A DNA stretch of 16,790 nt. Source: a bacterium (GTDB lineage: Bacteria > JAJRZV01). The stretch spans positions 1-16,790 of the forward strand of contig JAJRZV010000126.1 in assembly GCA_024275095.1 (NCBI GenBank), read 5' to 3'. The first letter of the stretch is position 1. Each line of letters begins with the position of its first letter. The position numbers and the translations under genes are program-made. The notes beneath the pieces were generated by a model. It was not told the DNA's origin. It did not search any database and saw nothing but the letters and a program-made list of their open reading frames with translations. Below are positions 1 to 15,725 of the stretch, one piece after another.

Positions 1-2
1 CC

Positions 3-1019
3 GTGCTGCAAAAATTTGCTTCTATGGGCATTATTGATGCACCAGGGCTTAAACAGGAAGATGAATGTGACCTCTCCGAAAAAGAGCGTCGCGAAATCGA
101 CGTTTTCGTGAAAAAATTAGAAGAAAAAAACTACTTTGAAATTCTCGGAGTCTCTCCGGAAGCGGATACAGAAGAAATCAAAGACGCGAGTATCATGCTC
201 ATACGACGCTTCCATCCGGACCGTTTCTTTCGACGAAAACTCGGGCCTTACAAAAGAAAACTTGAACATATTGTCACCCGCCTTCAAGCGATTTCAGAAA
301 CACTGGCCAATCCAGAATCGAGAAAAATATATGCTGAACAATTCGGCGCACCACGCAAATCCACACATGCCGTGCGTGTAGAATACGAAGCCGTTCGGGA
401 GGAAAAGGAGGAAAAAAAGAAAGAACAAGCGGTACCCGAGAAAGACACCGCTGGTAGACCACACCGTAAAAAACCGGGTGTCGAACTGATACGAGAACGC
501 ATAAAAAAAGCCCGCAGGCTTTTTGAAGAGGCCGCTCAGAAAGAAAAAAACGGTGACATTTCCGGAGCAATACTCGACCTCCAGCTCGCTCTCGCATATG
601 ACCCCTTCTGCCGTGAATATCAGGAAGCTCTGTCTCGATTGAAAGAGTTACACGAACGGAAAACAGGCAGCTGGGAGAACTTCTACCAGGAGGCTCTTTC
701 ACTTATCGCACAGGGCGAAACGGAAAAAGCTGAAAAGGTTCTTCTTCGCTGCATCACACAGAAACCTTCCTCTCCTGATCCATATCGTGACCTGGCCAGC
801 CTGCTTCTGGAAAAAGGCAAGGAAGACAAAGCACTGGAGATAGCAAAAATAGCCACGAACGAGTTTGAAGACAACCTCGAACTTCGAATGATGCTCGTAT
901 CCATATACGAACGAATGCTTCAGTACGATAGAGCACTGGCGGAGATGAAAAAAATTTTGAAATTTTTAGTTAAAGAAGGGCGAATAGATGGTAAAATTGT
1001 GCAAAGTTTTGTCAGATAA
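3..1019 (+). CDS. J-domain (DnaJ-like) protein with C-terminal TPRs, probably truncated at 5' end
   Basis: The visible 338 residues start with a short segment ending in 'FASMGIIDAP'. A J domain follows at about residues 43-115 with the diagnostic HPD tripeptide at 71-73, which in J proteins stimulates Hsp70 ATP hydrolysis. A charged Lys/Glu-rich linker (about 120-170) leads to TPR-like helix pairs from about 170 to 335. There is no Gly/Phe-rich region or zinc finger, so this is a class III J protein and not DnaJ itself. The frame is open to the window edge and the GTG at base 3 has no visible ribosome site. The first residues resemble the end of the winged-helix-like domain in the gene at 2661, so the true protein probably starts upstream. 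An Hsp70 gene begins 16 bases downstream and is the obvious partner. The J domain is certain; the client and role are unknown. Confidence 0.85.
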   Translation: MLQKFASMGIIDAPGLKQEDECDLSEKERREIDVFVKKLEEKNYFEILGVSPEADTEEIKDASIMLIRRFHPDRFFRRKLGPYKRKLEHIVTRLQAISETLANPESRKIYAEQFGAPRKSTHAVRVEYEAVREEKEEKKKEQAVPEKDTAGRPHRKKPGVELIRERIKKARRLFEEAAQKEKNGDISGAILDLQLALAYDPFCREYQEALSRLKELHERKTGSWENFYQEALSLIAQGETEKAEKVLLRCITQKPSSPDPYRDLASLLLEKGKEDKALEIAKIATNEFEDNLELRMMLVSIYERMLQYDRALAEMKKILKFLVKEGRIDGKIVQSFVR

Positions 1020-1022
1020 GTA

Positions 1023-1033
1023 AGGGGGTGGGG
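1023..1033 (+). promoter_or_regulatory. G-rich ribosome binding site of the Hsp70 gene
   Basis: A run of AAGGGGGTGGGG lies directly before the ATG at 1036, in the 16-base gap after the J-protein stop codon. It is purine-rich and contains an AGGGGG core at a workable distance. It fixes this ATG as the start and points to translation from one shared transcript. Confidence 0.6.
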
Positions 1034-1035
1034 AT

Positions 1036-2607
1036 ATGAGCGTGCCTGTGGGAATCGACCTGGGAACCACCAATTCAGCCGTGGCATACATAGACGGCGA
1101 CCAGCCCAGAATTATCACCGATTCAAGCGGACAGAACACGTTCCCATCTGTATTTGCCGTCACCAAGGACGGGAGCCGTCTGGTGGGAAACCTCGCCAAA
1201 CGACAGATGATCATTAATCCAGAAAATACCATTTACGCAGTAAAAAGACTTATTGGCCGACGCTTCGACTCGGAAGAAGTACAGGAGGCCATAAAAAAAC
1301 TCCCCTACCGCATTGTACGCGGGCCCAACGACGATGTGAGAATAGAACTGCCTGACAAAATTTACAGCATCCAGGAAATTTCCGCTGCCATTTTAATTTA
1401 TCTGAAAAAAATCGCAGAAGAGGCTCTTCAAACAGAAGTCCACGAAGCTGTTATTACCGTTCCTGCTTACTTTAATGACAATCAACGCCAGGCAACCAAA
1501 GACGCTGGCATTATCGCGGGACTGGATGTGCTGCGCATCATCAATGAACCCACAGCGGCTGCGCTTTCTTTCGGACTTCACAAAAAGACCGACAGGGCCA
1601 CTATTGCTGTTTACGACCTGGGAGGTGGCACATTTGACATTTCCATACTGGAGATGCGCAAGGGTAATTTTGAGGTCCTTTCCACGGCTGGTGATACATA
1701 CCTGGGAGGAGAGGATTTCGACAGGCGCCTGATGGAATACATGATGGAAAAATTTAAAAAAGAAACAGGGGTAGATCTATCAGAAGATAAAATGGCGATG
1801 CAGCGCCTCAAAGAAGCAGCGGAAAAAGCAAAATGTGACCTGTCATTCACCAGCGAAATTGAAATAAAACTTCCTTTTATTGCGATGGGGGAAACCGAGC
1901 CTCTTCATCTGAACCTCGTCATCACAAGAGAAATCTTCGAGGATCTCGTAGCCGCGCTGGTACGCACAACCATCGAAACATGTGCCCAGGCACTGGAACT
2001 TGCGGGGAAGAAGCCCTCGGACATTGATGAAGTCCTTCTCGTGGGCGGCCAAACCCGCAGTCCCATCGTCCAGAGAGAGGTGGAAAAGTTCTTCGGTCGC
2101 AGACCTTCCAAAAACGTGAATCCTGATGAAGCAGTGGCCCTTGGAGCAGCGGTACAGGCTCATGCCCTTACCAGCGGGGGTGAAATATTTCTCTACGATA
2201 TTACCCCCTTCAGCCTGGGCATTGAAACGGCAGGGGGCAAATTCGCGCGCATTATCGAACGAAACTCCACGGTCCCTGTTACGAAAACACGGGTGTTCAC
2301 CACGTCTGAAAACGATCAGCAGGCTGTAAAAATCCGCGTGTATCAGGGTGATAAAGAAATCGCTGAAGAAAATGTCTTTCTCGGCGAATTTGTGCTCTCA
2401 GGAATCAGGCCTGCACCAAAAGGGGTCCCACGCATTGAGGTAAGCTTTCACATTGACTCTGACGGAATTGTCAATGTTTCAGCTAAGGATCTGGACACGG
2501 GCAAAGAACAGTCCATTACAATTACGTCATCAAGTGGCCTTACAGAAGCGGAAGTTCAGGAAATGGCAGAAGAAGCAAAAATTTACGAGCTGGAGCTGGA
2601 AGTATAA
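1036..2607 (+). CDS. Hsp70/DnaK-family chaperone lacking the C-terminal lid
   Basis: The 523-residue protein has a full Hsp70 ATPase domain. Visible motifs are phosphate-1 GIDLGTTNSAV (6-16), IINEPTAAAL (168-177), phosphate-2 YDLGGGTFD (193-201) and the adenosine motif VLLVGGQTRSP (333-343). A complete beta substrate-binding domain follows (about 390-500). The sequence stops at residue 523, just after the 'SSGLTEAEVQEM' start of the lid, so about 100 or more residues found in a normal DnaK of roughly 600-640 are absent. The interdomain linker reads IFLYD where DnaK usually has VLLLD. The next 53 bases do not encode lid-like sequence, so this is a natural short form and not a frameshift. Its position behind a J-domain gene and ahead of a TPR gene suggests a dedicated chaperone, distinct from a housekeeping dnaK. 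No grpE is seen. Confidence 0.93.
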   Translation: MSVPVGIDLGTTNSAVAYIDGDQPRIITDSSGQNTFPSVFAVTKDGSRLVGNLAKRQMIINPENTIYAVKRLIGRRFDSEEVQEAIKKLPYRIVRGPNDDVRIELPDKIYSIQEISAAILIYLKKIAEEALQTEVHEAVITVPAYFNDNQRQATKDAGIIAGLDVLRIINEPTAAALSFGLHKKTDRATIAVYDLGGGTFDISILEMRKGNFEVLSTAGDTYLGGEDFDRRLMEYMMEKFKKETGVDLSEDKMAMQRLKEAAEKAKCDLSFTSEIEIKLPFIAMGETEPLHLNLVITREIFEDLVAALVRTTIETCAQALELAGKKPSDIDEVLLVGGQTRSPIVQREVEKFFGRRPSKNVNPDEAVALGAAVQAHALTSGGEIFLYDITPFSLGIETAGGKFARIIERNSTVPVTKTRVFTTSENDQQAVKIRVYQGDKEIAEENVFLGEFVLSGIRPAPKGVPRIEVSFHIDSDGIVNVSAKDLDTGKEQSITITSSSGLTEAEVQEMAEEAKIYELELEV

Positions 2608-2660
2608 TAATGCGTGGTGGCTTGCCGGAGTTTAACTGCCACATTGTTTAAGACATAACC

Positions 2661-3209
2661 GTGAGAACACACATTCGAGAATTACTTGACAAAGGGCTTG
2701 AACATTATGGATACGGGAAATACAAGGAAGCAATCGAATGCTGGAAGCAGGTTCTCAGGATAGACCCCACCAACGAAGAAGCACGCGATTACCTCACCTC
2801 CGCCGGTGAACCCATCAGCGAATTGCCCCCTTCTCACCCACCGGGCAAAACTGTGGAAAACATGCGTGAAGCCTTTAATAAGGGGGACTTCGCTTCAGCC
2901 TGTGTTCTGGCAACCATGTTCACACAGCCTTCCATACCTACAGAAACGCATCAAATATACGTTCTTTCAGCATTGAACCTGATCGATTACTACTTGAATA
3001 ATAAAAAATTCCGAGAGGTTCGACCTGTACGAACAGAAAAAAATGCGGACATAGAAAATTTTGTCCTCACAACCCAGGAAGCCTTTATTCTGGGGCTCTG
3101 TGACGGCCAAACCACGGTGGAGGAACTAAAAAGTCTTTCACAATTGAACGAAATGGAAACAACGCGTGCACTGCTGCGGTTGAAAAGCATGGGATTGATA
3201 AAATGGTGA
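2661..3209 (+). CDS. small TPR protein with C-terminal winged-helix-like domain
   Basis: The product has 182 residues. Residues about 8-42 form a clear TPR unit (Gly-rich turn, 'YKEAIECWKQVLRIDP'), and a Pro-rich linker follows at 55-63. Residues about 134-182 ('LTTQEAFILGLCDGQTTVEE' onward) match the pattern of the short helical C-terminal domain common in Desulfobacterota and Myxobacteria regulatory proteins: a hydrophobic helix, 'DG', a second helix, then 'LLRLKSMGLI'. I read it as winged-helix-like, but it may mediate protein contacts and not DNA binding. The GTG start at 2661 has a weak upstream site. No other start fits the TPR better. The gene lies 53 bases after the Hsp70 and overlaps the next gene by 7 bases, so it belongs to the same unit. 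TPRs often dock Hsp70 tails, but this Hsp70 has no such tail. The function is not known. Confidence 0.7.
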   Translation: MRTHIRELLDKGLEHYGYGKYKEAIECWKQVLRIDPTNEEARDYLTSAGEPISELPPSHPPGKTVENMREAFNKGDFASACVLATMFTQPSIPTETHQIYVLSALNLIDYYLNNKKFREVRPVRTEKNADIENFVLTTQEAFILGLCDGQTTVEELKSLSQLNEMETTRALLRLKSMGLIKW

Positions 3210-4138
3210 ACACACCTGAAACTACAGAAAAGACTCTACTTAAATACCTGCGGACCGGAATTCTGGTACTGACCAGAAAATTTGACGTTTTATACATCAA
3301 TCCTGCAGCAGAAAAATTGTTAAACGTGTCCTCACCTTTTTTGAAAGAAAACAAAAAACTCTCAATTGATGATATTTTCACACAAAAAGAAGCTGGTATT
3401 GTACGGTTATGGGTGGACAACACACGGCGTCATTCAAACGCTTTTCTGGAAATTAAAAAGGATGGAAGAGTGCTCCGATTTGTTGCTCATCCCATTGTGG
3501 AAGGAAGGAACGACCTGGGAACAATAGTGGAAATTATTGATGTAACCTCATGGACAGAAAACATGTCTCGACAGGACGAATTCGTCAATCAACTTGCAAG
3601 AGAAATTACCGGCAAACTATCTGGCAAACTCCCACCAGGATGCGAAGACCTGCCACAGGAGATTGCAGACGAAATCCACAACCTCGCGTCTTGGTACCTT
3701 ACCTCTGCTTTTGGTGAAGGGGTTGAATTTTTCGAACTATCTACAATAGTACATGAGATGCTGGATCGCATGTCTTCAAATCTCAAAAACACCGCCGTAT
3801 TCCACTTCATTCCGGCGATGTTACCTCCGGTTCTGTGTGTGAGAAGCGCTCTTGAAAAAGGGTTCAACTTTCTCATGCGTTTCGTTATCGAACAGGCGGA
3901 CACTAATCACCCCCTTATATTTGCTGTTAAACCCTCCCAGACTGGAAAAGGCCTCGGGGTTCTTATATCATATGCCCTGTTTTTAAAAGATAAGGCTGCA
4001 CTCAGGGGCGATACAAACCTGTCCAGAGGTCGAGCCATGCTGGAAAAGGCAGGTGGCGAGGTTGAAGTTCTCACTCATACCAACGGTTCAGCATGTATAA
4101 CAACCTTTCTACCAGCGTCCCAGAGTGCCGTAGCCTGA
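3203..4138 (+). CDS. PAS-domain protein with degenerate histidine-kinase-like C-terminus
   Basis: The product has 311 residues and no signal peptide or membrane segment. Residues about 12-115 form a PAS fold ('LRTGILVLTRKFDVLYINPA', ending 'GTIVEIIDVTSW'). What follows has the layout of a sensor kinase: a helical segment 'QDEFVNQLAREI' (124-135) where an H-box would sit, a helix pair, 'LEKGFNFLMRFVIEQA' (217-232) where the N-box would sit, and a final 'LSRGRAMLEKAGGEVEVL' like the G2/end region of HATPase_c. The phospho-acceptor His is missing, the N-box Asn is replaced, and no DxGxG is present. It is therefore probably a pseudokinase that senses a ligand or partner through PAS. ATG at 3203 overlaps the upstream gene by 7 bases, implying coupled translation. 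Assignment of PAS is good; the pseudokinase reading is inference from motif loss. Confidence 0.7.
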   Translation: MVNTPETTEKTLLKYLRTGILVLTRKFDVLYINPAAEKLLNVSSPFLKENKKLSIDDIFTQKEAGIVRLWVDNTRRHSNAFLEIKKDGRVLRFVAHPIVEGRNDLGTIVEIIDVTSWTENMSRQDEFVNQLAREITGKLSGKLPPGCEDLPQEIADEIHNLASWYLTSAFGEGVEFFELSTIVHEMLDRMSSNLKNTAVFHFIPAMLPPVLCVRSALEKGFNFLMRFVIEQADTNHPLIFAVKPSQTGKGLGVLISYALFLKDKAALRGDTNLSRGRAMLEKAGGEVEVLTHTNGSACITTFLPASQSAVA

Positions 4139-4165: not shown

Positions 4166-5377
4166 ATGAAAAACTCTGTGTCAAAAATTGTTCTTGCTTA
4201 CTCAGGCGGCCTTGACACATCTGTCATCCTGTATTACCTCCGTGAGCGGTACCAGTGCGAAGTTATTGCTTTCATCGCTGACCTGGGGCAGGAAGAAAAT
4301 CTCAAGGAAATCAGGGACAGAGCACTGGCGACAGGTGCCTCGAAAGCATATGTGGAAGATGTGAAAGAAGAATTTGTACGGGATTATGTATTTCCCATGA
4401 TGCGGGCAGGAGCAATCTACGAAGGAGTATATCTTCTGGGTACTTCTATCGCGCGGCCCCTCATTGCCAAAAAACAGATAGAAATCGCCGAAAAGGAAGG
4501 AGCGGATGCAGTTGCCCACGGAGCCACGGGAAAAGGCAACGACCAGGTAAGATTTGAACTCACATACTACGCTCTCAAACCCGATATTCAAGTAATAGCA
4601 CCCTGGAGAGAATGGGAATTTGTTGGCCGTCGAGACCTTATAGAGTATGCAAAAAAGCATAATATCCCTGTAGAGGCATCTGAAGAAAAACCTTACAGTA
4701 TCGACAGAAACGTTCTGCACACGAGCTATGAGGGAGGCATACTGGAGGATCCCTGGACAGAACCACCAGAGGACATGTTTTTAAATACCGTATCTCCGGA
4801 AAAAGCACCGGATACGCCGGAATACGTGGAAATCGAATTTGAAGAAGGTAACCCTGTCGCCGTGAACGGTGAAAAACTCAGCCCGTACAAGTTACTCGCA
4901 CGACTCAACACACTTGGCAGCCGTCACGGAATCGGCAGAGCCGACGTCGTAGAAAATCGATATGTGGGGATAAAAAACCGCGGCGTATATGAAACACCGG
5001 GAGGAACCATCATCTACACAGCCCATCGTGCGCTTGAAGGTCTCACACTCGACAGGGAGGTTTTACATCTTCGAGACTCACTCATCCCGCGGTATTCAGA
5101 ACTGGTGTACTATGGCTACTGGTTCTCACCAGAAAGGAAAATGCTCCAGGCAGCCATGGATGAAGTCCAGAAAAACGTCACGGGGATCGTACGGTTAAAA
5201 CTTTACAAAGGAGCCGTCCACGTGGTGGGCCGGCGATCACCCTATTCCCTCTTCGATGCTGATCTGGCCTCGTTCGAGAAATCGGGAGATTACAACCAGC
5301 AGGATGCTACAGGTTTCATCCGCGTCAATGCACTCAGATTGAAAACAATCGCCAGGAAACGAGGAGGACTATCGTGA
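4166..5377 (+). CDS. argG: argininosuccinate synthase
   Basis: Argininosuccinate synthase joins citrulline and aspartate with ATP, forming argininosuccinate, the penultimate step of arginine synthesis, in the cytoplasm. The 403-residue length is normal for the family. The N-terminal ATP pyrophosphatase P-loop is visible as YSGGLDTSV (12-20). Other family signatures are '[14 protein letters not shown]' (about 118-131), '[20 protein letters not shown]' and '[10 protein letters not shown]' near the end. An ATG at 4166 lies 7 bases after a CGGAG site. The 27-base gap from the preceding PAS gene carries no terminator. The stop overlaps the mreB start by 4 bases (GTGA). No other arginine gene is visible in the window, so its place between a signalling group and the cell-shape genes is unusual. 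Confidence 0.98.
5361..5367 (+). promoter_or_regulatory. strong ribosome binding site for mreB inside the end of argG
   Basis: GAGGAGG sits 6 bases before the GTG start of mreB and inside the last codons of argG. It supports GTG at 5374 as the mreB start and efficient initiation despite the overlap. Confidence 0.75.
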
Positions 5378-6414
5378 TCTTTGACAATCTCGTCGGATGG
5401 TTTTCCAAAGACCTGGCCATTGATCTTGGCACTGCCAACACTCTTGTCTACACACGCGATAGAGGAATCATCCTGAGAGAGCCCTCTGTCGTAGCCGTGG
5501 CGCTTGATGAACGTGGAACCAAGCGCATCATTGCAGTGGGAGATGAAGCCAAGGATATGCTTGGAAAAACACCTGGAAATGTACAGGCCATACGTCCACT
5601 GCGAGATGGTGTCATCGCGGACTTCGAAGTGGCTCAGGCAATGCTTCGTTTTTTCATCAGCCGTGTACATCGACGCCGCAGCCTTTTAAGACCCATTATT
5701 GTTATCAGCATTCCACACGGAATCACGGAGGTTGAAAAACGCGCTGTTAAAGAAGCAGCGCTGTCAGCCGGTGCACGCGAGGTTTACCTTGTAGAAGAAC
5801 CCATGGCCGCTGCCATCGGCGCAGAAATACGTGTGGAAGAACCTTCCGGAAACCTCATCGTTGACATTGGAGGCGGCACAACCGAAGTGGCTGTCATTTC
5901 CCTTGCGGGCATCGTTCAGTCACGGTCTGTCAAGGTGGGGGGAGACAAAATGGACGAGGCCATTATTCAATACATCAAAAAACAACACAACATCCTCATA
6001 GGTGAAAAAACCGCAGAAAATATAAAAATAGAAATTGGGAACGCCAAACCCGCTCAAGACGAAGAGCCTCGAAAGACTCTTGTGAGAGGTCGTGATCTGC
6101 TCATGGGAATACCGAAACATGTTGAAGTCTCTGATGCAGAAATCGCGGAAGCGCTCAGACCCACCTTACAAGCTATTGTGGAAGCCATACGTTCAACCCT
6201 GGAGAAGACACCGCCTGAACTTGCTTCAGATATTATTGAAAAGGGGGTTATCCTCACTGGAGGAGGTAGCCTTCTGAAAAACCTGGACATACTCATTCGC
6301 GACGAAGTGCAGTTGCCGGTTACAGTTGTTGAAAATCCTCTCGATTCGGTAGTTCTGGGATGCGGCCAATTGTTAGAAAATCCAGATCTGTTAAGCCGCG
6401 TAGCTGTTGGTTGA
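5374..6414 (+). CDS. mreB: rod shape-determining protein MreB (bacterial actin)
   Basis: MreB polymerises on the inner face of the cytoplasmic membrane and steers the elongasome (MreCD, RodZ, RodA, PBP2). The 346-residue length is typical. Actin-fold nucleotide motifs are visible: [11 protein letters not shown] (16-26), 'LREPSVVAV' (34-42), '[15 protein letters not shown]' (phosphate 2) and '[11 protein letters not shown]' (adenosine motif). The N-terminus '[19 protein letters not shown]' has the short amphipathic start seen in MreBs. Initiation is at a GTG that overlaps the argG stop (GTGA) behind a strong GAGGAGG site. Its stop overlaps mreC by 8 bases. The gene order mreB-mreC-mreD-mrdA-rodA is the classic rod-shape cluster. 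Confidence 0.98.
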
Positions 6415-7210
6415 AAAAATATTCAGATACAAACGAACCCTGTACTACATTTTTCTCCTCTTAATTTCGCTCAACCTTTATTCCACATCCACAATTGGTA
6501 AAGGTCTCCACCGCATAGCACTGGACATACTCGGGTATCCTGTCGCGCAAATACACAGGGTGGTCCTGAAAACAAAAAAACTGCACGAAAAGTATCAACA
6601 CCTTTTAAAAGCACTCGACGAAAATCAAATGCTGAAAAAAAAGCTGGCTCAGCTTACACATGAAAAAACCCGACTCGAAGCCCTGCTGTCAGAGATGGAA
6701 TCTTTTGCACCGGAGTTGAAACGCCTGCGCCGAAGCAACGTCCACATTAAAAGCATATGTCGTATTGTGGGTGAAGTTCGAAATTCGGCTGTATTTATCA
6801 TTGATTGCGGAGAAAAGGAGAGTGTGCAGCCGGGTGATCCTGTGCTCAGCCCGGAAGGTATTGTCGGCAAGGTAAGCAATACCGGTCGATATTTCTCCAC
6901 GGTAATTACAATTTTCAATCCTGAACTGGCTGTGGATGCGATTACGGTTGACTCCCGCTCAAGAGGAATTGTCAAAGGTGGAAAAGACGCGCTTACAATG
7001 CTTTACATCATGCCATCAGCAACCATTGCAATTGGAGATAATGTGGTCACATCAGGGCTGGACGGAACATTTCCTTACGGCATTCCCGTAGGGCAGGTCG
7101 AAAAAGTGCTGCTGGACCGCCAGAAGGTGATGAAACAGGTGGTCTTAAAACCAGCTACAACAATGAATGCTCTCACTGCAGTAATTGTACTGAAAAGGAG
7201 AAGCCCGTGA
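6407..7210 (+). CDS. mreC: rod shape-determining protein MreC
   Basis: MreC is a bitopic periplasmic scaffold that dimerises and activates PBP2/RodA. The 267 residues comprise a short basic N-terminus, one membrane anchor (about 9-27, 'LYYIFLLLISLNLY'), a Lys/Glu/Leu-rich coiled coil (about 45-100, including 'ALDENQMLKKKLAQLTHEK') and a beta-rich domain with 'GDPVLSPEGIVGKVSNTGRY', the typical MreC signature. The start is a TTG at 6407 inside the mreB stop region with no clear ribosome site. No ATG or GTG in frame precedes the anchor, so coupling to mreB translation is likely. It ends overlapping the mreD start by 4 bases. Confidence 0.95.
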   Translation: MVEKIFRYKRTLYYIFLLLISLNLYSTSTIGKGLHRIALDILGYPVAQIHRVVLKTKKLHEKYQHLLKALDENQMLKKKLAQLTHEKTRLEALLSEMESFAPELKRLRRSNVHIKSICRIVGEVRNSAVFIIDCGEKESVQPGDPVLSPEGIVGKVSNTGRYFSTVITIFNPELAVDAITVDSRSRGIVKGGKDALTMLYIMPSATIAIGDNVVTSGLDGTFPYGIPVGQVEKVLLDRQKVMKQVVLKPATTMNALTAVIVLKRRSP

Positions 7211-7683
7211 AGCAAATATTCATTGATGTGGTGCTGGCGATTACGGGTTATACTTTCTCCACTGCGGGAGTCCTTCCTGAATTCATATCGCCGCACTTTT
7301 CAATCGTATTTTTCTCCTGCCTGATAATGAGAAACAGTTACTTTGAAGAAGTAACAGAGGCGTTTTTTCTCGGCATCATTAACGATATTTTTCTCGGACT
7401 TCCAGCAGGCTCTACTCCTCTCCTTTTTATCATTCTTTATCCCCTATCCAAGGTTGTGAAGAACAACCTGTATGTGGAACGCAAAACCGTACTGGTCATT
7501 CTTGCCACAGGACACACTCTTATACTGGCACTGGGATATTACATATTACCGGGGGCAGGGGCCTTCACAAGTACTGGAAACGTCATTCTTAAAACCCTTC
7601 TCAACGGAATATGGGCCCCAGTGTTGTTTTCACTTTCCACGAAAACATACGAGACACTGAGAAAGAAAAAAGGAAAATTGTAA
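7207..7683 (+). CDS. mreD: rod shape-determining protein MreD
   Basis: This is a 158-residue, strongly hydrophobic protein with about five predicted membrane segments. The central stretch 'EAFFLGIINDIFLGLPAGST' matches the MreD family hallmark (conserved G..xD...G.p.G). MreD is the polytopic membrane partner of MreC in the elongasome. GTG at 7207 overlaps the mreC stop (GTGA) behind AAGGAG at 7195-7200. The stop codon directly abuts the ATG of mrdA. Sequence conservation in MreD is low, so position between mreC and the PBP2 gene is part of the support. Confidence 0.9.
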   Translation: MKQIFIDVVLAITGYTFSTAGVLPEFISPHFSIVFFSCLIMRNSYFEEVTEAFFLGIINDIFLGLPAGSTPLLFIILYPLSKVVKNNLYVERKTVLVILATGHTLILALGYYILPGAGAFTSTGNVILKTLLNGIWAPVLFSLSTKTYETLRKKKGKL

Positions 7684-9516
7684 ATGGAGCTCTACTCCAG
7701 TGGAGATATTCTTCTCTTCCGTCGCAGGATTATCTATCTCACTGTTTTGGTTTTCTGCGTGTTTGCGGGTGTCACGTTCAGATTTTTTTACCTCCAGATT
7801 ATCCAGAACCCCCGCTTCAAAGCACTTTCGGAAGAAAACCGGATAAAAACCAAAAGGTTATTTCCAATCCGCGGATTAATATATGATCGGCATCTGCGTC
7901 CAATAGCCGACAATCAACCCTTATATAAAGTGCTCATTCGACCTGAGTACATAAAAAATGAAAAAGAGACAGCCCTGTGGCTTGAAAAAAACCTGAACAT
8001 TTCCCAAAAAGACTTCGAGACCAAGCTCACCAACCACTTAAAAGTTAATCCACCCTTTGTACCCCTTGTTCTCCTGGAAGATGCCACATTTGACCAGGTC
8101 TCAAGAGTGGAAACATCCAAATTCGCTCATCCCGAGCTGGAAGTGGCGGTAGTACCTGTGCGGCACTATCCTTACTCATCTGCTTTTGCTCATGTACTGG
8201 GGTACGTGGGAGAAATCACGCACGACGAACTCAAGCTATACAAACGCTACGGATATCGAATAGGAGATTTTGTCGGCAAGGCCGGAATAGAACTCGCCTT
8301 TGAAAAAAATCTGCACGGCCGCGAGGGAGCCCTCTTTGTTGAAATTGATGCGACAGGTCGAGAACTGCGGGTGGTGAAGGAAATTCCACCTGTCCAGGGA
8401 GATTCGGTAATAACAACTCTCGATCTTCAACTGCAGTTGTATGCTGATAAACTCATGAAAAGCAAATCCGGAGCCTTTGTCGTCATCAATCCTCACTCGG
8501 GGGAAATACTTGCTGCTGGAAGTTATCCATCATTTGATTCAAACATTCCGGCACGACCAAGGCTGCGAAGACAATGGCTCAAACTTTCCAGGTCACCTCT
8601 TCACCCCCTTCTGAACAGGCTTATTCAGGGCTTGTATGCTCCAGGTTCCACTTTCAAACCCGTGGTAGCCCTTGCAGGCCTCGCGGAAAAAATTATAGAC
8701 CCTCAAGAAACCCTGGTGTGCCGGGGACGATACCGAATTGTAAGAAGATGGTTCAGGGATTGGAAACGCTGGGGGCATGGCACCGTCGACATGATCCGTG
8801 CCCTGGCAGTATCGTGTGATGTGTATTTTTATCACCTTGGACTTCTGGTCGGGCCCTGGGAGATTTTCAAGTATGCCAAACTTCTCGGGTTCGGAGAAAC
8901 CACAGGCATTGAAATCCCCGGTGAGAAAACAGGATTTGTCCCCTCTCCATCGTGGAAGGAAAAGGTCATAGGTGAAGGCTGGACAGCGGGTGAAACAGCC
9001 GTTCTATCCATTGGACAGGGGTATATACTCGTCACCCCGCTTCAAATGGCCCTTGCATACGCAGCACTTGTCACGGGCGGGCACATACCTCATCCGTACA
9101 TCGTTTCAGACATCATATCTCCCGATGGAAAAAAAATATGGCATCGAGAACCCGAAATCTTGCGAGATGTTAATATTCAACCAGACGCCCTGGAAATTCT
9201 GAAAGAAGGCCTGTTTGAAGCAGTAAACGCACGAAACGGCACAGGTATCAGGGCCCGATCCCGCATCATCCACATCGCCGGGAAAACAGGTACGGCTCAG
9301 GTCATCGCTTCGCAAAAAGACGAGAAGGAAATACCGGAACACTTGCGTGACCACGCGTGGTTTATAGGAATGGCCCCGGCGGAGGATCCTGAAATCGTTG
9401 TCGCCGTAATTGTGGAACACGGAGGTTCCGGGGGTAAAACGGCTGCTCCCATTGCCCGGGCAATCATAGAAAAATATTTCAGCATACGCTCAGGAGAGTC
9501 CACGGATGTATTTTGA
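7684..9516 (+). CDS. mrdA: penicillin-binding protein 2 (elongation-specific transpeptidase)
   Basis: The product is a 610-residue class B PBP that crosslinks peptidoglycan during elongation together with RodA. It has one N-terminal membrane anchor (about 18-40), then the dimerisation/pedestal region with 'KTKRLFPIRGLIYDRH' (55-70) and 'VGKAGIELAFEKNLHGREG' (197-215). The transpeptidase domain shows all three active-site motifs: S322-T-F-K (nucleophile Ser), S378-C-D and K534-T-G-T. The ATG immediately follows the mreD stop, with an AAGGAAA site 7-8 bases upstream inside mreD. The last 11 bases overlap rodA, as expected for paired RodA-PBP2 synthesis. Confidence 0.97.
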   Translation: MELYSSGDILLFRRRIIYLTVLVFCVFAGVTFRFFYLQIIQNPRFKALSEENRIKTKRLFPIRGLIYDRHLRPIADNQPLYKVLIRPEYIKNEKETALWLEKNLNISQKDFETKLTNHLKVNPPFVPLVLLEDATFDQVSRVETSKFAHPELEVAVVPVRHYPYSSAFAHVLGYVGEITHDELKLYKRYGYRIGDFVGKAGIELAFEKNLHGREGALFVEIDATGRELRVVKEIPPVQGDSVITTLDLQLQLYADKLMKSKSGAFVVINPHSGEILAAGSYPSFDSNIPARPRLRRQWLKLSRSPLHPLLNRLIQGLYAPGSTFKPVVALAGLAEKIIDPQETLVCRGRYRIVRRWFRDWKRWGHGTVDMIRALAVSCDVYFYHLGLLVGPWEIFKYAKLLGFGETTGIEIPGEKTGFVPSPSWKEKVIGEGWTAGETAVLSIGQGYILVTPLQMALAYAALVTGGHIPHPYIVSDIISPDGKKIWHREPEILRDVNIQPDALEILKEGLFEAVNARNGTGIRARSRIIHIAGKTGTAQVIASQKDEKEIPEHLRDHAWFIGMAPAEDPEIVVAVIVEHGGSGGKTAAPIARAIIEKYFSIRSGESTDVF

Positions 9517-10609
9517 ACGCAAGTCTGGCACAGAGCTGGTAGCACCTCTGACTTTGATGGCCATTGTAATGGTGTGCGGTCTCCTGAACTTATCAAGCTC
9601 AACTGCCACCTCGGGGTTTAAAGGACTGCTGGCACGGCAATTCATATGGGACATGTTTGCTGCTGGTATCTTCGTGGCCACGGCTTTCGTAGGCAGACGT
9701 TCCCTGAAAACTTTCGCTTACACCATCTACGCAGCAAGTCTCTTAAGTCTGATAGGGGTACTCATTCACGGCACGGGACCCGGCGATGTAAAACGCTGGC
9801 TCACCCTGGGCCCCTTGAGATTTCAACCCTCCGAATTGACCAAAGCAGGGGTCATCAGCGTAATGGCCGTTTATCTCAGTACAGTTACAGAAAAAGAAAC
9901 CAGGGACCTGTCAAAACTTCTGGGGACAATGTTAGTCAGCGGCGTGCCGGTCATCCTCATTGCTCTGGAACCCGACATAGGAACAGCGGGAGTAGTACTT
10001 CTCTCTGCAGGGTGCCTTCTTCTTATTGCAGGTCTAAACAAACGCACCCTTCTTATACTGACAATCGCTGGCATTGTAGCAATGCCTGTCGTCTGGAAAT
10101 ACGGGCTTAAAGATTACCAGAAGAAACGGATAGAAACCTTTCTCTCACCTGAGAAAGATCCAATGGGTGCAGGGTACCAGAGCATTCAATCCAAAATCAC
10201 AGTAGGCTCCGGGGGACTCTGGGGAAAAGGTTTCCGCAAAGGCACCCAGACTCAGCTTCGCTTCCTGCCCGAGCAACACACCGATTTTGCATTTTCCGTC
10301 TGGGCTGAAGAATGGGGATTTATGGGGTCACTATTTGTTATTGCCATGTATTTTTTTCTTGCATTGATATACGCAGAGGGCGCCGCAAGTGCCCACTCAC
10401 TGGACACCCTGTTTCTCAACGCAGGGGTATGCATACACATTACCCTTCATGCATTTTTTAACCTGGGCATGGTCGCGGGTATGCTGCCCGTTGTAGGTCT
10501 GCCGCTGCCATTTTTCAGTTACGGAGGCTCAACCGCCATTGCCACCGCACTCCTTATGGGTCTGGCAGAAGCCTCAAAAAACGTCTCTCTTTTCGATGCG
10601 CGACTCTGA
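9506..10609 (+). CDS. rodA: peptidoglycan glycosyltransferase RodA (SEDS family)
   Basis: RodA polymerises lipid II into glycan strands in the inner membrane, paired with PBP2. The 367 residues contain around ten hydrophobic segments. SEDS signatures are visible: 'RWLTLGPLRFQPSELTK' (97-113), 'EPDIGTAGV' (155-163), 'EQHTDFAFSVWAEEWG' (256-271; D260 corresponds to the essential Asp) and 'LPLPFFSYGGS' (332-342). The ATG has AGGAGAG at 9492-9498, 7 bases upstream and inside the end of mrdA. It is the last gene of the plus-strand run. The minus-strand prenyltransferase gene ends at the very next base, leaving no room for a dedicated terminator between them. Confidence 0.97.
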   Translation: MYFERKSGTELVAPLTLMAIVMVCGLLNLSSSTATSGFKGLLARQFIWDMFAAGIFVATAFVGRRSLKTFAYTIYAASLLSLIGVLIHGTGPGDVKRWLTLGPLRFQPSELTKAGVISVMAVYLSTVTEKETRDLSKLLGTMLVSGVPVILIALEPDIGTAGVVLLSAGCLLLIAGLNKRTLLILTIAGIVAMPVVWKYGLKDYQKKRIETFLSPEKDPMGAGYQSIQSKITVGSGGLWGKGFRKGTQTQLRFLPEQHTDFAFSVWAEEWGFMGSLFVIAMYFFLALIYAEGAASAHSLDTLFLNAGVCIHITLHAFFNLGMVAGMLPVVGLPLPFFSYGGSTAIATALLMGLAEASKNVSLFDARL

Positions 10610-13596: not shown

Positions 13597-14118
13597 TTAA
13601 CTCTTCTGTTCGTTTTTACACCGGCGGTAATACTCGAATATACGACCAGTCGTTTTCACTCCCACACCCCTGGGCCATGGCTCGCCTCTTGAGAACGCAC
13701 CGGACGCTATGTCCCCCGCGATGAGAGCTGCCCTGGACGGGCCGATGCCGGGAATAGTTGAAAGTTCACGCACAGAGGCATCTCTCAAGCACTTTTTTAA
13801 TCCGAGTGCGCGCAGCACTTGTACGTGCATTGGTTTCTGCCCGGGTTGCTCATCAGGATAAGGCACATACGCGCGACAACCGTTACACACTTCTACATTC
13901 TTTTCGAGGTCCACCGGCACCACGAGTCCGCTTCCACAGGCAATCAGGTCTGAAAAATGAGGTTTTTCGGTGAAAGTACAAATTAAAGGTTCAACGACAT
14001 TTCCCTCCACACGTGCAATAAAAATTTTCTCCGGAGAAGGAGCTATGACAAGGCGTGTTAACGACCACAAACTGCCCAGCACAGCAATGCAGAGCGGAAA
14101 AAGAAAACCCAAATTCAA
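13597..14118 (-). CDS. membrane-anchored helix-hairpin-helix (ComEA-like) protein
   Basis: The protein is small, with one membrane segment near its N-terminus ('GFLFPLCIAVLGSLW'). A middle region has a CxxC pair ('EVCNGCRAY') and other Cys residues. A C-terminal helix-hairpin-helix unit follows, with 'LSTIPGIGPSRAALIAGDIA', the double-HhH pattern of ComEA, which binds DNA during uptake. ComEA-type proteins usually lack the intervening Cys region, so this is a ComEA relative of unclear role. The start is uncertain. An ATG at 14199 would overlap cimA by 76 bases and give a low-complexity N-terminus with no ribosome site. TTG at 14118, 6 bases after the cimA stop, is preferred here. It is the third gene of the lysC-cimA unit. 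Confidence 0.65.
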   Translation of the reverse strand: MNLGFLFPLCIAVLGSLWSLTRLVIAPSPEKIFIARVEGNVVEPLICTFTEKPHFSDLIACGSGLVVPVDLEKNVEVCNGCRAYVPYPDEQPGQKPMHVQVLRALGLKKCLRDASVRELSTIPGIGPSRAALIAGDIASGAFSRGEPWPRGVGVKTTGRIFEYYRRCKNEQKS

Positions 14119-14123
14119 AAATT

Positions 14124-15725
14124 TCAGGTTTTCTTTCTCTGTCGTCTGCGCTTTTCCTTGTTGAGCTTGTACTCCACGCTGTCCAGAAGAGCCTGCCATG
14201 ATGCTTCGATAATATTTTGACTCACTCCCACGGTGGTCCAGGTTTCCTCTCCGTCTCCCGAGACAATAAGCACGCGCACCACAGATGCTGTGCCTTTGCC
14301 CTCGGGAATAACCCTCACCTTGAAATCTTCGAGTTTCAATTCTCGAAGTTCAGGGTAAAACTTCTCAAGCGCTTTCCTCAACGCGTTGTCCAGTGCATTA
14401 ACTGGACCGTTGCCTTCAGCAGCAGTGTGTTCTACATTGCCGTCCACTTCGACCATAATCGTGGCCTCCGAACGAGGCGGCTCACCCAATCTTGTTTTTT
14501 CATCAATTACCCTGAACCCCCGGAACCTGAAAAAGCGCCGCATGCGCCGTTTTACTCGCCGAATGAAAAGTTCCAGGGAAGCATCCGCACCCTCAAACTG
14601 GTAGCCTTCAGATTCCAGCTCTTTAATTCGTTCAAGTATCTTGGCGAGCTGTGGATCCTCCTCACTCAAATCCAGCCCCAGTTCCCTGGCTTTGAGAACA
14701 AGATTACTGCGTCCTGCAAGGTCGGAAACAATAATACGATTCTGATTACCCACAAGAGAAGGATCTATGTGCTCATAGGTGGTGGGGTCCTTGAGCACTG
14801 CACTTGCGTGGATACCACCCTTGTGTGCAAACGCGTTGTCACCTACATAAGGTTGATGTTTGTCTGGAGGAAGATTGGCCATTTCGTAAACAAAAATGGA
14901 CACCTCTCTTAACTTTCTAAGATCCCTTGAATCCAGGCACCTGTAACCCATCTTCAACTGAAGATCGGGGATAATGGCACACAAATCTGCATTGCCACAG
15001 CGTTCACCAATACCGTTAATCGTACCCTGAACGTGGACAACACCCGCGCGCACGGCTGCGATACTGTTGGCCACCGCGAGACCACCATCGTTGTGCGCAT
15101 GGATACCAAGGGGTACGTTCACTTCTTTTGCCGTGTCCTTAACGATTTCTTCAATCTCCCAGGGCAAAGAACCTCCATTGGTGTCACACAGCACAATGAC
15201 ATCCACACCAGCCTCTACAGCAACTTTCAAACACTTTAAAGCATAGGCGCGGTTGGATTTAAACCCGTCAAAATAGTGTTCTGGATCGAAAATGACCATG
15301 TCTGCACGCTTTTTCAGATACGCAATGGTGTCACTGATCATTCTCAGGTTCTCATCAAGCGAAGTTCTCAGTGCTTTTGTGACGTGAAAATCCCAGGTTT
15401 TACCGACAATGGTAAAAACGCCAACATCCGCTTCCAAAAGGGCACGAACGTTCGAGTCTTTCTCTACCTTTACACGCGGACGCCTGGTGGAACCAAAAGC
15501 GGCAATGCGACACTTGCGCAAATTTAGCGATTTTACCTCACGGAAATAGCTGGCATCCTTGGGATTGGAGCCCGGCCAGCCGCCCTCCACGAAATGGATC
15601 CCCAGATCGTCCAGGACTTCGGTAATTTTCAGTTTGTCGTGAAGTGAGAATGAAACGTCTGCAGCCTGAGCGCCGTCGCGCAGGGTTGTATCGTAAACGT
15701 AAATACGCCTGGACCTGGGAGACAT
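14124..15725 (-). CDS. cimA: (R)-citramalate synthase
   Basis: CimA condenses pyruvate with acetyl-CoA to citramalate, which opens the threonine-independent route to isoleucine. The 533-residue length and sequence fit the long citramalate synthase type within the isopropylmalate/homocitrate synthase family. '[10 protein letters not shown]' (11-20) holds the catalytic Arg/Asp. '[15 protein letters not shown]' carries the metal-binding HxH (209, 211), and '[12 protein letters not shown]' follows with the metal-ligand Asn. The C-terminal part (about 400-520) is the regulatory LeuA-dimer type domain. The ATG shares one base with the lysC stop (TAATG), with only a weak ribosome site, so coupled translation is likely. 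2-Isopropylmalate or homocitrate synthase is the alternative reading, made less likely by '[13 protein letters not shown]'. Confidence 0.94.

Follow-up and report, generated by a model that had tools for sequence, protein, structure and literature searches.

Apart from DnaK and HscA, the Hsp70 paralogues of bacteria mostly have no known job. The HscA/HscB pair, a paralogous Hsp70 with a J protein of its own, both encoded inside a biosynthetic operon as in the module described here, serves Fe-S assembly. The Myxococcus proteins SglK (MXAN_6671) and StkA (MXAN_3474) are, like the module Hsp70, non-heat-shock Hsp70 paralogues, and theirs are social and developmental roles. Of two further Myxococcus paralogues, MXAN_3016 is without the C-terminal tail, and the lid of MXAN_2747 is much shorter (PMC8265645). 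Deletion of MXAN_3016 lowered sporulation and oxidative resistance and left swarming, motility, and predation similar to those of the wild type, and the protein rescued an E. coli dnaK mutant poorly (PMC8265645).

Gene order and continuity of the locus

The window, meaning the whole 16,790-nt stretch of DNA that was analyzed, is one entire contig (C101) of a 2.45-Mb source MAG that is 97% complete. Four plus-strand ORFs lie at its 5' end (Table 1; the first was called as 3..1019), separated first by 16 nt and next by 53 nt, with the last two overlapping by 7 nt, and these coordinates confirmed the co-directional arrangement described in the first-pass annotation. The plus-strand run continues unbroken to position 10609 and contains ten genes, namely the four genes, argG, mreB, mreC, an mreD-like gene, a PBP2-like gene, and rodA; each is narrowly spaced from the next or slightly overlaps it. 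A promoter and terminator scan gave no excess over shuffles, so a common transcript of the ten genes is predicted from their spacing. The four-gene run is not a chance arrangement, because homologous runs are kept in other genomes. On the minus strand of the window, two ORFs (13597-14199 and 14124-15725), labeled from reading the sequence as ComEA/helix-hairpin-helix-like and citramalate/isopropylmalate synthase-like, respectively, overlap by 76 nt.

Table 1. Coordinates of the features in the window
Feature	Position	Strand	Basis or subdivision
Gene 1, HTH-J-TPR protein, 3' part	1..1019	+	J domain ~123..332, TPRs ~507..960
HPD motif of the J domain	213..221	+	Read in sequence; invariant in family alignment
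Gene 2, Hsp70 paralogue without lid, 523 aa	1036..2607	+	Pfam HSP70 2e-208
Gene 3, TPR + C-terminal HTH-like domain, 182 aa	2661..3209	+	Pfam TPR; profile homology
HTH-like domain common to gene 3 and the J N-terminus; wingless, acidic	3045..3206	+	
Gene 4, PAS-pseudo-histidine kinase, 311 aa	3203..4138	+	PAS ~3233..3550, degenerate DHp/ATPase core ~3551..4135
argG, argininosuccinate synthase; conserved 3' neighbor of the module	4166..5377	+	Synteny, similarity
mreB	5374..6414	+	
mreC	6407..7210	+	
mreD-like	7207..7683	+	Inferred from position and hydrophobicity
PBP2 (mrdA)-like	7684..9516	+	
rodA	9506..10609	+	

Gene 1 is truncated by the contig end. Its first ~58 codons are absent from the window and present on another contig, C84, the end of which is identical to window positions 1..141 (an overlap of exactly 141 nt). 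The frame is open across the join and the true start is a GTG at C84:5675, 172 nt upstream of the window; the GTG at window position 3 was ruled out as the start, as the frame continues into C84. A divergent trpC-like gene lies upstream of the completed J gene. We infer that the join represents the true neighborhood, since the terminal overlap has a typical assembly k-mer length and the join completes a domain.

The four encoded proteins

The completed J protein has ~396 aa, and its N-terminus is an HTH-like domain (LTPEESFILSRIDGSVSVMDIVAVTGLEEEKVIAVLQKFASMGI) of the type that also ends gene 3. Pfam matched DnaJ (3.4e-9) and TPR, with no other domains above the cut-off. The HPD motif is intact and the DnaJ Gly/Phe and zinc-finger regions are absent, and the protein is thus a class III J-domain TPR protein, as first annotated. 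The N-terminal HTH of the J protein and the arginine linkage described below are points that the first-pass annotation missed.

The gene 2 product ends just past SBD beta, at the start of the lid, and the Pfam HSP70 match covers residues 5-517 only. With only 53 nt before gene 3, there is no room for a lid, and the description of this protein as an Hsp70 without a lid was borne out. Lidlessness as a defining trait was not, since most relatives keep the lid. Lidless module forms end a few residues into the lid, and the possibility that the lid was merely frameshifted away was rejected because Hsp70s of the G019 and G043 groups stop at the same place. The equivalents of the ATPase and J-contact residues (D8, K70, R167, E171, D194, GGGT, D201, and D393) and the peptide pocket residues are intact, and every module Hsp70, lidded members included, differs at the R445 position. 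A frequent module signature is LLGEFxLxG[IL]R, compared with GIPPAPRG in canonical DnaKs; the Hsp70s of loci L146 and L180 carry DIPPAPRG instead.

In the phylogenetic tree, the window Hsp70 and the other module Hsp70s were placed outside a 17-row canonical DnaK clade (support 100/99), and the copies of the G019 group formed the sister of the window protein (97/94). The branching order of the module lineages lacked resolution, and a single module clade was not rejected (p-AU 0.37). As most relatives are lidded, lid loss is derived, and the fewest lid/lidless changes on this tree were three, with an unrelated lidless family counted. The window protein scored 756 bits against the DnaK model and 542 bits against the HscA model, below the HscA cut-off of 708.55, and two full-length DnaK-type genes are found elsewhere in the source genome. 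Judged from its sequence, the module Hsp70 is a paralogue of DnaK whose ATPase site is intact. Separately, a different lidless Hsp70 family (~532 aa), with a J gene directly downstream (L107 7605-9735, L108 5746-7955, G324:C613, and G182:C6), formed its own clade (100/100), and its Myxococcus member is probably MXAN_2747. An AxxNxLLGEF motif is common to haloarchaeal DnaKs (L109-L188) and module Hsp70s; the two haloarchaeal DnaKs tested in the tree grouped with canonical DnaK.

Gene 3 had been described as encoding a TPR plus winged-helix-like protein. The TPR part was recovered by Pfam and the C-terminal domain is an HTH-like three-helix unit, but only 0-7 residues follow helix 3, leaving no wing. 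Single-sequence searches with gene 3 were too weak beyond the G019 group and profiles were required. Profile positions 67-184 were homologous to REC-TPR-HTH response regulators; no receiver domain was matched by Pfam in gene 3, the N-terminus of which is TPR. Gene 3 thus appears to be a receiver-less relative of these regulators. The gene 3 end and the J start share the HTH consensus LxLTxxEGFILSxIDGxxSVxxLxxLSGL..GVI. An AlphaFold model of gene 3 from a two-row alignment was poor (pLDDT 62), and Foldseek with this model returned TPR-like matches only, none at E <= 0.001. In other genomes, receiver-TPR-HTH proteins of G226 and G084 end in the gene 3 HTH unit, response-regulator-like receiver/TPR-like/HTH proteins are encoded at L062 (5561-5926, minus strand) and L064 (5689-6126, plus strand), and the unit is also found in DUF4388/PATAN-like proteins (the receiver and PATAN labels come from reading the sequences). 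No literature linking DUF4388 with DnaJ was found.

These properties bear on a regulatory reading in line with the first-pass annotation, in which the operon would be controlled by DNA-bound HTH proteins, and the Hsp70 would cycle this regulator on and off, as for HrcA or HspR, under PAS control. The weak profile matches of the HTH-like unit to MarR/AsnC/TrmB HTHs and the kinship of gene 3 with REC-TPR-HTH proteins are consistent with it, but the domains end without a wing, are acidic (KR<DE) in 16/18 cases, and showed no conserved basic recognition helix among the gene 3 proteins, and the unit occurs twice in one DUF4388/PATAN-like protein. A DNA-binding output from a wingless and mostly acidic domain is doubtful, and we consider this reading quite improbable.

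The gene 4 protein showed a weak Pfam match to PAS, and its family profile matched solved histidine kinases across the PAS, DHp, and ATPase parts (best, 1.8e-20; RetS, 3.4e-20; DivL, 4.5e-8). The phospho-acceptor His was absent in 8/8 homologues examined, with N, D, E, A, or R at the aligned site, and none of the eight showed a HisKA match. Pfam matched HATPase_c in 6/8 homologues and not in the window protein, which is the most degenerate. An AlphaFold model of gene 4 alone was too poor to be used (pLDDT 41). These results agree with the earlier description of a PAS protein with a broken kinase core, and the missing phospho-acceptor His together with the lack of a HisKA match suggests that the family has no kinase activity.

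Conservation and arginine linkage of the module

Gene neighborhoods were compared across phylum-level groups, each being a set returned by the genome search as one phylum. A contig scan with a 33-residue Hsp70 signature was dominated by haloarchaeal DnaKs, and the bacterial loci L146, L154, L170, and L180 were followed up from it. Adjacent J and Hsp70 genes were found in at least six phylum-level groups, with the source genome included. In the 30 best loci of each of two groups, Hsp70 was directly downstream of J in 29/30 (G381 group, J protein in 73/140 genomes at E <= 1e-35) and 29/30 (G182 group, J protein in 86/117 genomes), and the upstream gene was argF in 16/30 of the former and argD, argF, or both in 16/30 of the latter; because the loci of a group depend on one another, the counts are a description of conservation and not probabilities. 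As read from gene order, the conserved core is J and Hsp70, frequently followed by TPR-HTH. The proposal that the four genes form one system therefore stood in part: the J-Hsp70 unit recurs in distant groups and TPR-HTH is commonly next, but all four genes were contiguous only in the source genome and one small phylum-level group (the G019 group). The first-pass annotation knew of no named system with this set, and none was found on follow-up; a literature search on argG with Hsp70, J, and TPR gave no title describing a J/Hsp70/TPR-HTH arginine module.

In the G019 group, the genes occurred in two types of cluster. Type A (Hsp70/TPR-HTH/PAS) was present in 7/9 genomes, and type B (Hsp70/TPR-HTH/argG, then mreB wherever the contig reached) in eight genomes. 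In G019 itself, J starts both types, and it was found by profile at both cluster sites in G065 and G064. Paralogous copies lie in one genome at L012 4562-8924 and L013 5231-9736, one with the PAS pseudokinase and the other with argG-mreB; the two contexts are joined in the window. The window looks, by its gene order, like types A and B fused in one place. The type B order with J was also found at L154 (JAJYLN010000002), through rodA.

Arginine genes recurred around the module. An argF, argD, or argB gene adjoined J in five groups, argG was downstream of the module in the source genome and four groups, and the common order was argB/argD-argF-J-Hsp70-[TPR-HTH]-argG. This position between argF and argG would be explained if the Hsp70/J pair were a dedicated arginine-biosynthesis chaperone for ArgF/ArgG or a multi-enzyme complex, which it would fold, hold, or assemble. 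Consistent with this, the order was argB-argD-argF-J-Hsp70-argG in the G043 group (L146; argF-J-Hsp70-argG at L180, with both Hsp70s lidless) and argD-argF-J-Hsp70-TPR/HTH-argG in G182 and G381 (in the latter read as argD-argF-J-Hsp70-HTH-argG), and argG was downstream in 8/8 type B loci of the G019 group. However, the adjoining argG genes belong to two distant families, since the module argG of G182 (L063 6023-7381) is of a second argininosuccinate synthase family with ~30% identity to the window ArgG. The linkage thus tracks the pathway rather than any one protein, and this favors a link by pathway or position over a single client protein. In addition, the type A copy of G019 has no arginine genes around it. 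Arginine enzymes fold without dedicated Hsp70/J help in most bacteria, and we regard an arginine chaperone as unlikely.

The core was also found in other contexts. In the G039 group, the order was argD-argF-J-Hsp70 with a lidded Hsp70, and TPR-HTH and PAS formed a separate, unlinked pair; such a pair was also seen in G192 and G324. J-Hsp70 or Hsp70-TPR-HTH was found with no arginine genes in view in G185, G098, G254, and G135. In G157 and G295, which belong to one group, a HEAT-like protein gene in place of Hsp70 came after argB-argD-argF-J, and in G226 the J gene stood alone, suggesting that J can work otherwise. At L222 4214-6021 and L225 5670-7568, argB-argD-argF-J precedes a small HEAT-like protein gene, beside genes of HD-GYP-like and HEAT-repeat proteins.

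The G182 group probably belongs to the Myxococcota. In the single-contig genome G576 (8.97 Mb), the positions of the Hsp70 genes scale to those of MXAN_3192, SglK, MXAN_3016, and MXAN_2747. The SglK-like gene of this genome lies behind a GrpE homologue, has its nearest relatives among DnaK-type proteins, keeps GIPPAPRG, and has no TPR-HTH or J gene of the module family beside it; the module Hsp70 is at a separate chromosomal locus. The comparison of the window Hsp70 with SglK and StkA made in the first-pass annotation is therefore probably wrong, and the window protein is probably not orthologous to either. MXAN_3016 is probably the Myxococcus member of the module family, an equation drawn through G576 from map position and agreement with the lid description, and not from the MXAN_3016 sequence. 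MXAN_3016 was named in a single paper in the literature search. If the equation holds, PMC8265645 is the only experimental evidence found on the module Hsp70 family.

This evidence bears on a further alternative, that the module serves stress or development physiology and merely keeps an ancestral position in an arginine operon. The arginine linkage may indeed be old gene order rather than function. The phenotype of the MXAN_3016 deletion, with sporulation and oxidative resistance lowered and motility and predation normal, fits this alternative (PMC8265645), and so does the loss of linkage in some relatives. On the other hand, gene order is usually lost over such distances, yet several phylum-level groups still show the linkage, and the phenotype applies to the module only through the equation with MXAN_3016. 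We consider this alternative rather unlikely.

A proposed dedicated Hsp70/J machine compared with known systems

The best-supported reading of these sequences is a non-stress Hsp70/J machine dedicated to a client or a signal. In its full form, that of an ancient machine separate from DnaK/DnaJ with a narrow, dedicated client set in the manner of HscA/HscB, we give this reading about an even chance. In such a machine, J and TPR-HTH would select a client or regulatory partner through their common small docking domain and hand it to the Hsp70. Lidless Hsp70s exchange substrate faster, and in the lidless forms substrate binding would be fast and reversible, so that the machine would remodel or hold its substrate rather than fold it. 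The PAS pseudokinase might sense a ligand or redox state and act on TPR-HTH by protein contacts without phosphotransfer. By linkage only, the arginine enzymes or, at this locus, the MreB elongation complex are candidate clients. A more elaborate form, a phosphorylation-free two-component-like system in which the PAS pseudokinase would sense a cue and relay it by contact to the receiver-less TPR-HTH, which in turn would switch the dedicated Hsp70/J pair, coupling arginine (nitrogen) metabolism and cell-wall elongation through the shared operon, seems quite improbable.

The conserved context common to several phylum-level groups links one of these Hsp70 paralogues of no known job with a defined J partner, with a TPR partner, and with the neighborhood of a pathway. 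The module is probably present in tractable myxobacteria, and its function could therefore be tested by gene removal. It also offers two natural experiments, namely the loss of lids in some lineages with the ATPase site kept, and a histidine-kinase family whose members, as a rule, have lost the phospho-acceptor His.

Among known systems, DivL has no phospho-acceptor His. The RetS/DivL-type kinases and pseudokinases, judged by profile, probably share the kinase fold with the gene 4 family, whereas gene 4 encodes a small soluble PAS protein inside a chaperone operon. DUF4388/PATAN proteins and REC-TPR-HTH regulators have the small HTH-like unit in common with gene 3, but the regulators carry a receiver where gene 3 has TPR at the N-terminus. 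MXAN_3016, with a lid of normal length and no C-terminal tail, agrees with the module Hsp70 of G576; unlike the window Hsp70 it has a lid, and its probable G576 counterpart has no adjoining PAS gene. The module differs from HscA/HscB in its HTH-J-TPR architecture of the J protein and in the loss of the lid in some lineages, and no isc genes were seen in the window. By analogy, and not as a family match, HscA/HscB is the closest functional parallel to the module.
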